NCBI GenBank assembly: GCA_025449735.1
Contig: JANWIV010000004.1
Coordinates: 30,585-94,584 of the forward strand
DNA: 64,000 bases
Source: Candidatus Microgenomates bacterium
GTDB lineage: Bacteria > Patescibacteriota > Microgenomatia > UBA1406 > HO2-37-13b
Direction of reading: 5' to 3'
The notes below the pieces were generated by a model. It saw nothing but the letters and a program-made list of their open reading frames with translations, did not search any database and had not been told where the DNA came from. Within the stretch, counting starts at the first letter, position 1. The number at the start of each line of letters is the position of its first letter. Positions 16,396 to 57,290 of this stretch are shown piece after piece. The position numbers and the translations under genes were made by a program.

Positions 16396-16410
16396 CCTGC
16401 CCGCCGCTTG

Positions 16411-16481
16411 TGGACCTAGCCAGAATCGAACTGGCGACTGTGCAATGCGAATGCACCGGTATACCACTTACCTATAGGCCC
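16411..16481 (-). tRNA. tRNA-Ala(CGC), inner intact copy
   Basis: GGGCCTA TA GGTA AGTGGTA TACC G GTGCA TTCGCAT TGCAC AGTC GCCAG TTCGATT CTGGC TAGGTCC A; carries G3:U70. Confidence 0.9.
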
Positions 16482-16503
16482 AGAGATAGCTTTGGCAGGC
16501 GGG

Positions 16504-16539
16504 TGCGAATGCAGTGCTCTACCACTGAGCTACGTGCCC
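16504..16539 (-). tRNA. Outer split tRNA-Ala(CGC), 5' exon (36 nt)
   Basis: GGGCACG TA GCTC AGTGGTA GAGC A CTGCA TTCGCA; interrupted after position 37. Confidence 0.75.
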
Positions 16540-16562
16540 TTGCCTATACTAAAGCAGGCGGG

Positions 16563-16635
16563 TATGTGAAGTCGTTTGCCCGAACAAATTTTGTTTTGCA
16601 AAATTTGCGCGGGTGAACCACTAGACCATAGGCCC
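16563..16635 (-). pseudogene. 5' half of a Glu-like tRNA with hairpin in D-loop
   Basis: GGGCCTATGGTCTAGTGGTT + CACCCGCGCAAATTTTGCAAAACAAAATTTGTTCGGGCA + AACGACTTCACATA, then CCCGCCTGC. Confidence 0.6.
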
Positions 16636-16704
16636 ATACGCTAATTATAACACGGGTCCAAACGCTACAAACTAAGATCACAAGTAGTTCAAAGTATTTA
16701 AATA

Positions 16705-18674: not shown

Positions 18675-18944
18675 AATAATTTAATAAGCTCAGAGTTCTT
18701 TTCCCGTGGGCGTTTTGACAATATGGATGTGGTGGCCATCAACGAAAAGCGCTGATTAAGACCCTTTTTTAAGAGAAATTTGTTTTTATTTATACTCAAG
18801 GTTTCTCTTGAGTCTCTATTAATTATTAATTTTTGCTATGCATCTTGTAAGCCCTCCAATTCTTCCCATTTGCCTTAGCATATTATTGCTGCGGCTCATG
18901 GAGCGAATTTTGGTGGGCTATTTTTTTGCTTCGCAAAAAAAATA

Positions 18945-20600
18945 GAAAGGAGGTGATTCACCGACTCCTTCCAGAACCGGTACCTTGTTACGACTTAGCC
19001 CCCATCGCCGACCTTACCCTCTCCTGATATAATCGGGATTCGGGTACTGACGACTTTGTTGGCTTGACGGGCAGTGTGTGCAAGAGACAAGAACGTATTC
19101 ACCGCGGTATAGCTGACCCGCGATTACTACTAATTCCGCGTTCATGAGGGCGAGTTTCAGCCCTCAATCCCCACTGAGAACTGGTTTTTGAGATTGGCTT
19201 GACGTTACCGTTTTGCAACCCTTTGTCCAGCTCATTGTAGCATGTGTGTAGCCCAAGGTATAAGCGCCATGCTGACTTGACGTCTGCTCCTCCTTCCTCC
19301 CCGACGTATGTCAGGGCAGTCCCTCGAGACACTTGTAACTCAAGGTAGAGGTTGCGTTCGTTGTCCCACTTAAGGGCACTCCTCACGGAACGAACTGACG
19401 ACAGCCATGCAGCAGCTGTCTTATTGTCAATAAATAAATACTGAAAATTATATTTCTATAACGGTCAAAAAGATGTCAAACCTTGGTGAGGTTTTTCGTT
19501 TTGTATCGAATTAAACCACATGCTCCACTAGTTGTGTGTCTCCCCGCCAATTCCTTTGAGTTTCAACCTTGCGATCGTAATCCCCAGGCGGCTCGCTTAA
19601 CGCGTTTGCTTCGCCACACCTCCACCAAAAAGGAGAAGATGCAACCAGCGAGCATTGTTTACAGCTAGGACTACCCGGGTCTCTAATCCGGTTCGCTCCC
19701 CTAGCTTTCGTTTCTCAGCGTCAGTTATCTTCCAGAAATCTGCCTTCGCCATTGGTGTTCTTGATGGTATCAACGCATTTCACTACTCCTCCATCAATTC
19801 CGATTTCCCTAAAGAAAACTCAATTCCGCCAGTTTCCTGCCCCTTCTCTCGCGTGAGGCGAGATCTTTAAAGCAAGACTTGGCGGAACGCCTACAAACTC
19901 TTTACGCCTAGTCACACCGGATAACGCTTGTGGCCCTCGTATTACCGACGCTTCTGGCACGAAGTTAGCGGCCACTTTCTTGAGAGGTACCGTCAATCCG
20001 ACAATTGCCGGACTTCTTCCCTCTCCACAGTAGTTTACACTAAATAATAGCGTCTTCCTACACGCGGTGTCGCGTGGTCAGGCTTTCGCCCATTGCCAAC
20101 GATTCCTGATTGCTGCCGCCCGTAGGCGTGGAGCCCGTGTCTCAGTGCTCCTCTGGCTGACCACCCTTATTAAAGTCAGCTAACCGTCATAGGCTTGGTA
20201 GGCTTTTACCCTACCAACTACCTGATGGTACGCAGGCCCCTCCCAAAACGAGCAGTTAAGCCCTTTACCCTTGCGGGACTATGGAGTATTACCCCCGATT
20301 TCTCGGAGCTATCCTCTATTTTGGGGTAGGTTCCTACGCGTTACTCAGCCGTCTGCCGCTACACTCGTGCAAAGCACGAGAACCTCCAAGAGACAAGATA
20401 CAACTCACAAGTAACAAACAAATTTCAACTAACAACTTACAAATAATTAGTTTGTAGATTGAATATTGGTTATTGTTTGTATCTTGGTTATTGTTCTTGT
20501 TACTTGAATGTCCTTGTGCTTCGCAAAAGCGACGCTCGACTTGCATATCTTAAGCACACCGCTAGCGTTCATCCTGAGCCAGGATCAAACTCTTAAAAAA
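18945..20600 (-). rRNA. rrs: 16S ribosomal RNA (with V1 insertion)
   Basis: Minus strand AGAGTTTGATCCTGGCTCAGGATGAACGC near 20593 to AAGTCGTAACAAGG...GAATCACCTCCTTT near 18945; conserved 907 and 1492 regions present. Confidence 0.97.
20394..20505. repeat. Repeat E (copy 1), inserted in 16S V1/helix 6
   Basis: First 86 nt match 52941-53026 with one mismatch. Confidence 0.92.
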
Positions 20601-20709
20601 ATTGAAGTATTAGAATACTTCGCAGGGAATTCCAACATTTCGGTTTTAAGGCCGAAAGTCAGAATATGCATTCATCTTCTGATTTTTAGTCCAGAATAAA
20701 AATGCTATT

Positions 20710-20757
20710 AACCCGTTCAAATTTCGAGCCTAAGCCTGAAATTTGTTCGGGTAAACC
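20710..20757. repeat. Palindrome family P (GGTTTACCCGAACAAATTTC...GAAATTTGAACGGGT), copy upstream of 16S
   Basis: Close match to 56629-56676; related hairpin at 16579-16617. Confidence 0.85.
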
Positions 20758-20921
20758 ACCACATCCTTATTGTCAAAGAGCGTGTGAACAAAAAATTATC
20801 AAAAATGTGTATTAGGGAGGCAGGATAATGAAGAGGTTACACAACTTGCAGAGCTCTTCAAGCTGACACCCGACGATGCATCATATTTGTTACGGTATTA
20901 TAAAGGGAGTTGACACTAAAA

Positions 20922-52940: not shown

Positions 52941-53073
52941 CAAGATACAACTCACAAGTAACAAACAAATTTCAACTAACAACTTACAAATAATTAGTTT
53001 GTAGATTGAATATTGATTATTGTTTGCCTGCCTGTCGGCAGACAGGTGTCTTGGTTATTGTTTCTTGTTACTT
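52941..53073. repeat. Repeat E (copy 2) between rpmI and rplT, interrupted by a 20-bp palindrome
   Basis: Matches 20394-20505; extra CCTGCCTGTCGGCAGACAGG at 53027-53046. Confidence 0.92.
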
Positions 53074-56221: not shown

Positions 56222-56276
56222 TTATGATGAGAAATTATAGCAGAAAAAATTGATAGAACAGTCTAAATTATGTTGG

Positions 56277-56348
56277 TGGACGACGTTGGGATTGAACCAA
56301 CGACCTCTGCAATGTCAATGCAGCGCTCTACCACTGAGCTAGTCGTCC
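56277..56348 (-). tRNA. tRNA-Val(GAC), CCA encoded at 56274-56276
   Basis: GGACGAC TA GCTC AGTGGTA GAGC G CTGCA TTGACAT TGCAG AGGTC GTTGG TTCAATC CCAAC GTCGTCC A. Confidence 0.97.
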
Positions 56349-56605
56349 TTTATACCCGTCCAATAATTCTTCAAAACTTTTTTTAAATAGCTTCTTCCCC
56401 ATTGTGTCTTAAAGAACTTCTCTCTTGCAGTTGCGTCCTGTTGATGTAAATATGCCTCATAATAAATTAATTTAAAAGGTCTTCGATGTCTAGTTACACT
56501 TATCTTACCTGTGTTGTGATCATTAACTCGCTTCTTCAAATCAGACGAATACCCATTATACAATCTGTTATCAACTAAACTCTGCAAAACATATACATAG
56601 TACAT
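56339..56605 (-). CDS. GIY-YIG nuclease-domain protein; stop codon lies inside the tRNA-Val gene
   Basis: MYYVYVLQSLVDNRLYNGYSSDLKKRVNDHNTGK...; C-terminal KDD-stop read from GGACGACTAG of the tRNA. Confidence 0.9.
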   Translation of the reverse strand: MYYVYVLQSLVDNRLYNGYSSDLKKRVNDHNTGKISVTRHRRPFKLIYYEAYLHQQDATAREKFFKTQWGRSYLKKVLKNYWTGIKDD

Positions 56606-56691
56606 ATTTTATAAAACAGCGCTCTTAACCCGTTCAAATTTCAGGCAACTGCCCGAAATTTGTTCGGGTAAACCAACTGAGCTAGTCGTCC
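56602..56691 (-). pseudogene. tRNA 5' half (Val-like acceptor) with palindrome P in the D-loop
   Basis: GGACGACTAGCTCAGTTGGTT + TACCCGAACAAATTTCGGGCAGTTGCCTGAAATTTGAACGGG + TTAAGAGCGCTGTTTTATAAAAT. Confidence 0.82.
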
Positions 56692-56738
56692 AAAAAAAGC
56701 ACTTAATAATTATATCATAGGAAGCGTTACTAGGAGTT

Positions 56739-57290
56739 TTACATTACGTTTCTGGCGGTCTGTAGTTCTTGACTCATTGAATATTGGGTGCCTTTTCTCT
56801 TTGATCTCACCGAAAAAGCGGAGCCGCGCTTGGCTCGCTTGCTTTGCATCGCCTCAAGCCAGGTGTTGGCCTCTCCAACCTTTTGTTTTAGGCCGCGCAA
56901 GAATAGCAAGATCATCTCAAGGAAATGGACATGATAGGTACCTGGTTTTTCCGGCATTGATTGCAATGTGTGGCGCTCTACCTCTTCAACTTCAGAAATG
57001 ACGGCTTGATTGCGTGCCTTGATGTCGGCAACTTCGCGCCTGACTTCTGTCATTAGTTGCTGGATTTCTTGAGGTCGGACTGACGATTCATAGTGCTCAT
57101 TTTGGGAAAAGACGGTAAATTCCTGTCTTTTAGGGGCCTTTTGCGTTGATTGAAGCCTTTCTTGATAGGCTTGTTGCAGACTAAGCAAGTCAAAATCCTC
57201 TCGGCTCATCGGTCGACTCGCCGGAGATTTCACCGTTTCAATAGGGTTTTGATAAGGAGTCTTATGTTTCGGCTTTTGAGTGCTGTTCAT
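56739..57290 (-). CDS. Hypothetical protein
   Basis: 183-aa ORF, charged and helical. Confidence 0.55.
   Translation of the reverse strand: MNSTQKPKHKTPYQNPIETVKSPASRPMSREDFDLLSLQQAYQERLQSTQKAPKRQEFTVFSQNEHYESSVRPQEIQQLMTEVRREVADIKARNQAVISEVEEVERHTLQSMPEKPGTYHVHFLEMILLFLRGLKQKVGEANTWLEAMQSKRAKRGSAFSVRSKRKGTQYSMSQELQTARNVM

Follow-up and report, generated by a model that had tools for sequence, protein, structure and literature searches.

The nearest analogues of the locus described here, compared by analogy only, are SegB of phage T4 and the mobile open reading frames (ORFs) of fungal mitochondria. SegB of phages T4 and T6 is a free-standing GIY-YIG homing endonuclease encoded within a tRNA cluster, where it cuts inside tRNA genes (PMC13096335, PMC2988022) and, in phage T6, drives segB + tRNA tandem repeats (PMC13096335). 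The fungal mobile ORFs (of atp6, atp9, cox2 and nad3) carry a substitute gene end. In these systems an endonuclease ORF enters a gene, supplies the replacement end and displaces the native piece (PMC3630166). In CPR bacteria, GIY-YIG ORFs are described in rRNA insertions that are neither group I nor group II introns; these ORFs were judged to be outside homing spread, and tRNA is absent from the main text of that study (PMC11270868).

The Patescibacteria gene shares features with each of these systems. Like SegB, it is a free-standing GIY-YIG gene among tRNA genes and is associated with tandem repeats. By contrast, SegB is a phage gene located, according to a T4 review, between two tRNA genes and not in a split-and-restored tRNA, and cutting is demonstrated for SegB but not for the Patescibacteria protein. 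The hallmarks of the fungal mobile ORFs (an endonuclease ORF, a substitute end and a displaced native end) are all present. The fungal ORFs are mostly LAGLIDADG, reside in protein-coding genes of organelles and act on the C-terminal side, whereas the tRNA nuclease genes occupy bacterial tRNA genes, are found at either end and have hairpins in the relic. Thus, with bacterial tRNA genes as the host site, the present elements are analogous to the fungal mobile ORFs and are not members of that group. The CPR rRNA ORFs share the phylum and the use of structured RNA genes; however, they reside in rRNA, are rare and are not described to restore the gene.

The window (the whole stretch of 64,000 nucleotides that was analysed) includes on its minus strand, from 56691 to 56274, a tRNA-Val 5' half with a D-loop hairpin, an 88-residue GIY-YIG ORF and an intact tRNA-Val(GAC), in the order that the original prediction had claimed. 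The features, listed in the direction of transcription, are:

56739 to 57290, minus strand: DUF5660 gene, which flanks the locus upstream and is the marker for orthologous empty sites (annotation; comparison of relatives).
56709 to 56714, minus strand: probable -10 box (TATAAT) of the native tRNA-Val promoter, now before the displaced half (sequence; similar placement in the empty relatives L225 and L227).
56673 to 56691, minus strand: displaced tRNA-Val 5' half, nt 1-19, GGACGACTAGCTCAGTTGG (sequence comparison).
56625 to 56672, minus strand: palindrome/hairpin of about 48 nt within the D-loop of the displaced half, TTTACCCG...CGGGTTAA (sequence; alignment).
56613 to 56624, minus strand: remainder of the displaced half, GAGCGCTGTTTT, to about tRNA nt 33 (sequence; empty-site tRNAs).
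56339 to 56605, minus strand: GIY-YIG nuclease ORF, ATG start, 88 aa (PF01541 match, E 1.3e-14).
56274 to 56348, minus strand: intact tRNA-Val(GAC) (ARAGORN; Rfam tRNA, 71.2 bits).

The displaced half and the intact tRNA-Val are identical at 16 of their first 16 nt, and GAGCGCTGTTTT is partly diverged from the tRNA and ends, by comparison with empty-site tRNAs, just 5' of the anticodon position. The ORF stop (TAG) forms nt 8-10 of the intact tRNA-Val; thus, the last codons (AAG GAC GAC) extend into the tRNA. As the promoter of the window locus precedes the displaced half, this half is the old 5' end of the gene; that the native promoter belongs to it, not to the intact copy, goes beyond the first reading of the sequence. 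No displaced 3' half is found behind the intact tRNA-Val, where the downstream flank is like that of the empty relative G005. The anticodon of tRNA-Val(GAC) is present once among the 34 tRNAs of the same genome that were checked. A group I intron in the tRNA was considered and rejected, since no Rfam intron match is detected in the window and a complete tRNA follows the ORF, making splicing unnecessary. The locus is best read as a free-standing nuclease gene of the homing type, directed at tRNA genes, that brings along or duplicates the part it displaces. The probability that it is such a minimal mobile nuclease gene, living in tRNA genes and restoring the gene part it displaces, is estimated at roughly 0.75.

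Homologues of the GIY-YIG gene are found in 7 of 9 genomes in a search of the GTDB family, 55 of 59 at the order level and 258 of 381 at the phylum level. The named hosts include Roizmanbacteria, Levybacteria, Gottesmanbacteria, Moranbacteria, Kazan, Omnitrophota, Verrucomicrobia, WOR-3, Neomarinimicrobiota and Sphingobacteriales. Among 182 distinct loci, 105 are within 150 bp of a tRNA, where about 4 are expected (chance about 2.5%); on the strand of the tRNA, 70 of these copies immediately precede it and 34 immediately follow it, which leaves one on the opposite strand. The strand is shared with the tRNA in 117 of the 118 loci within 500 bp. This 182-copy set comes from the searches that gave rise to the idea; a later sample from across the phylum gave 34 matches, of which 14 are tRNA-adjacent (14/14 on the same strand). 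For two single-contig genomes, 12 copies are listed, and 8 of these have a tRNA no more than 150 bp away (P 5e-11). Twelve copies with no nearby tRNA are near tmRNA, 11 of them on the same strand, 115-208 bp away (L054, L088, L091, L105, L109, L124, L135, L142, L143, L151 and L214); the GIY-YIG gene is 3' of the tmRNA in 10 of these 11. About a third of the sampled copies have no nearby tRNA or tmRNA, some being at contig ends. The original prediction called for a search for GIY-YIG genes abutting tRNA 5' ends; these are present in dozens of genera, and the refuting outcome, genes of relatives lacking any association with tRNAs, did not occur. The mirror class 3' of the tRNA and the flanking of tmRNA were not foreseen. 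Recurrence of the same arrangement in many genomes rules out chance as the source of the window arrangement.

Displaced tRNA pieces are observed at many of these loci. A 5' fragment of the same tRNA precedes the ORF in 50 of the 70 upstream-type loci (score above all 50 shuffles), with a median relic score of 12.25 for the own tRNA vs 7.5 for tRNAs of other isotypes, and 39 of the 49 strong 5' relics begin exactly at tRNA nt 1. The downstream class has a displaced 3' piece in 13 of 40 cases, and each of the 13 strong 3' relics extends exactly as far as the 3' end of the tRNA. Relics are found at none of 29 tRNAs in GIY-free genomes, compared to 11 of 59 elsewhere (P 0.014). No displaced tmRNA piece is detected at the 11 adjacent tmRNA loci. 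Perfect hairpins are frequent in the relics, where they break into the D, anticodon or T arm or take its place (e.g., L116, L119, L120 and L203). The D-loop hairpin of the first reading is usual and not universal. The window hairpin is common to eight aligned elements of the window GIY clade; conservation of this hairpin and its flank (TTTACCCG...CGGGTGAAGAGCG) across the hosts of the clade indicates that they travel with the gene. More copies of the palindrome family are present in the same genome at window 20704-20758, G000:C3:314789 and G000:C2:269996. Terminal inverted repeats around the ORF occur in only 7/69 and 7/40 cases and, thus, are not a defining feature. A generic native 3' half is found downstream, where acceptor stems differ, in 2 of 20 cases, with L145 convincing; together with the tRNA-Val(TAC) locus of G000 (L012), this suggests that a whole tRNA is sometimes cargo. 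At L012 (G000:C2:269897-270051), tRNA-Val(TAC) is split at the anticodon, and a different complete tRNA-Val(TAC) resides between the halves without a nuclease gene.

Empty and occupied orthologous sites are observed among relatives, as in homing endonuclease systems. The order of tRNA-Leu, trigger factor, DUF5660 and tRNA-Val is common to relatives, and the tRNA-Val site has no insert in G005, G008 and G007, where the promoter is directly before the tRNA. A tRNA-Glu site, which adjoins a conserved membrane-protein gene, is filled upstream (G002, G011, G056 and G035), downstream (G024 and G006) or on both sides (G000) and is empty in 12 other relatives. Within genus g17, this site is filled downstream in G024, filled upstream in G056 and empty in six others; the tRNA-Glu sequences of filled G024 and empty G067 are identical. 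Thus, occupied and empty alleles coexist at both the tRNA-Val and tRNA-Glu sites, providing the empty sites that were to be sought. These sites and the genes that abut tRNAs in dozens of genera support the proposed footprint of a nuclease-linked insertion.

The gene lineages are isotype-specific. Isotypes cluster on the GIY tree, with 50 changes vs 83 in shuffles and none of 200 shuffles as low; the tree has few columns and many weak forks, and the clustering may derive in part from vertical inheritance at the same site. The window copy belongs to a supported clade of nine, of which seven are at tRNA-Val, while the two tRNA-Glu copies of G000 are of different lineages, each with same-side Glu relatives in other families. 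The gene is under purifying selection (dN/dS <1 in 48/48 finite pairs, median 0.16), and Y5, Y16, G18, R26, H30 and E62 are invariant or nearly invariant; the intact catalytic residues under selection that mark a homing endonuclease are, thus, present. AlphaFold2 predicts a confident lone GIY-YIG domain (pLDDT 91), and no DNA-binding domain or extension is visible in this 88-aa model. The protein therefore does not have the make-up of the I-TevI/Seg type, in which a catalytic domain is joined to a separate DNA-binding region. A match to TIGR01453 is weak and below the cut-off, and a PHROGs search gave no match. The closest solved structures are UPF0213 proteins, SLX1 and the I-TevI catalytic domain. 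UPF0213 (BH0048, 1zg2), the nearest of these to the small lone GIY-YIG domain, has a profile match of E 2e-16 over the domain and is the top Foldseek match (1.8e-4). UPF0213 proteins are not known to have a tRNA association or displaced gene fragments, and the relation is taken as structural kinship only.

With UPF0213 and the branched-DNA nuclease SLX1 as its top structural neighbors and no DNA-binding extension, the protein may instead be guided by structure, recognizing not the sequence but the shape of its target (folded tRNA-gene DNA, or the hairpins as cruciforms), with relics and arrays generated by error-prone break repair. Perfect hairpins are indeed found in 45 of 69 leaders vs 7% of shuffles, and tandem arrays of a tRNA piece and a GIY-YIG ORF occur at L099, L288 (G044:C2) and L202. 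At a contig end of G044, a tRNA-Ser 5' piece, hairpins and the ORF make up a 357-bp unit that is present in at least 12 identical copies; in a Sphingobacteriales genome, the unit is 369 bp long, occurs 3.7 times and includes copies of tRNA-Pro that bear hairpins. Hairpins are, however, also common elsewhere in these genomes, and the isotype-specific lineages point to sequence recognition; a structure-guided nuclease is considered unlikely, though not negligible.

The gene could also belong to the host and not to a parasite, as a conserved GIY-YIG nuclease co-transcribed with tRNAs for tRNA processing, turnover or regulation. The purifying selection and same-strand placement are compatible with this role, as is the overlap of the stop codon with the tRNA, which is observed in 33 of 70 upstream-type loci (18 of the 33 at nt 8-10); another 25 of the 70 have the stop within 10 nt before the tRNA. 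By contrast, presence of the gene is patchy even within one genus, many isotypes and either side of the tRNA are occupied, displaced tRNA relics are present, some copies are broken by stop codons and some genomes have no copy; a host function is, at best, a slim prospect.

Classic attachment sites include tRNA and tmRNA genes, and a displaced piece of tRNA is the classic footprint of their use. A passenger at such hotspots, left over from larger integrase-dependent elements that use the tRNA as attachment site, is nonetheless highly doubtful, as the insert measures only about 300-400 bp in total and has no integrase, and in nearly every case the ORF directly adjoins the end of a tRNA encoded on the same strand. 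Tyrosine-integrase elements share the restored tRNA and the displaced piece but are of kilobase size and encode an integrase; the window insert does not qualify as integrase-dependent, having the 88-aa GIY-YIG nuclease as its sole gene.

In the mobile nuclease gene reading, the element would insert into a tRNA gene, near the anticodon in the window lineage, and the native half next to the promoter would persist as a non-functional relic. The end of the element would duplicate the tRNA part that it displaces, or sometimes supply a whole tRNA, so that a complete tRNA could again be made from the native promoter. Release of the intact tRNA from the read-through transcript is inferred and would probably be by RNase P. 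As RNase P trimming at tRNA nt 1 would remove the stop codon of the mRNA, a transcript is inferred to yield either tRNA or protein, with the caveat that a conserved TAG at tRNA nt 8-10 would serve one frame of three by chance. The GIY-YIG protein is inferred to nick or cut empty tRNA alleles of its own isotype, and recombinational repair from the occupied copy would then spread the gene, as with free-standing homing endonucleases. The relic hairpins, whose role is likewise inferred, would probably block tRNA function of the relic or recombination with the intact copy. Several points count against this reading. No cleavage or transfer has been shown for the protein, which is predicted to be a lone catalytic domain without a visible DNA-binding domain. 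The displaced piece is found in only 13/40 downstream-type and 0/11 adjacent tmRNA cases. Where the relic is identical to the intact tRNA, the intact copy would still resemble a target, such that self-protection is unexplained.

A broader proposal, with the odds for and against it about even, is that these genes form an undescribed autonomous mobile class of about 350 bp with one nuclease of about 90 aa. Its members would home in an isotype-specific manner through the tRNA/tmRNA genes of Patescibacteria and other phyla, come with a replacement for part or all of the tRNA, and rewrite host tRNA genes over time. No prior description was found in searches of an open-access library; subscription papers were outside this coverage and, thus, the novelty is provisional. 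If the reading is right, these would be among the smallest mobile genes known, finding a safe harbor in the single-copy, essential tRNA genes of bacteria with reduced genomes. Such genes would exemplify a homing nuclease able to inhabit an RNA gene with no need of an intron, provide a route for swapping tRNA gene ends between species and be a source of many natural compact tRNA-directed nucleases.

Palindromes and displaced pieces are also noted apart from GIY-YIG genes. On the minus strand at window 16410-16640, two hairpin-bearing displaced tRNA 5' pieces precede tRNA-Ala(CGC) without a GIY-YIG ORF and are probably relics of two earlier insertions. In L001 (1340-1560), two palindrome copies interrupt a cobalamin riboswitch-like sequence, an assignment that is unconfirmed (no Rfam match). 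The palindrome of the displaced tRNA half recurs at window 20704-20758 within the leader of the 16S rRNA, immediately internal to the presumed processing stem, whose arms are at 20756-20777 and 18714-18735. An 86-nt repeat, with 99% identical copies at window 20394-20479 and 52941-53026, belongs to an insertion that occupies a loop close to the 5' end of the 16S rRNA gene.
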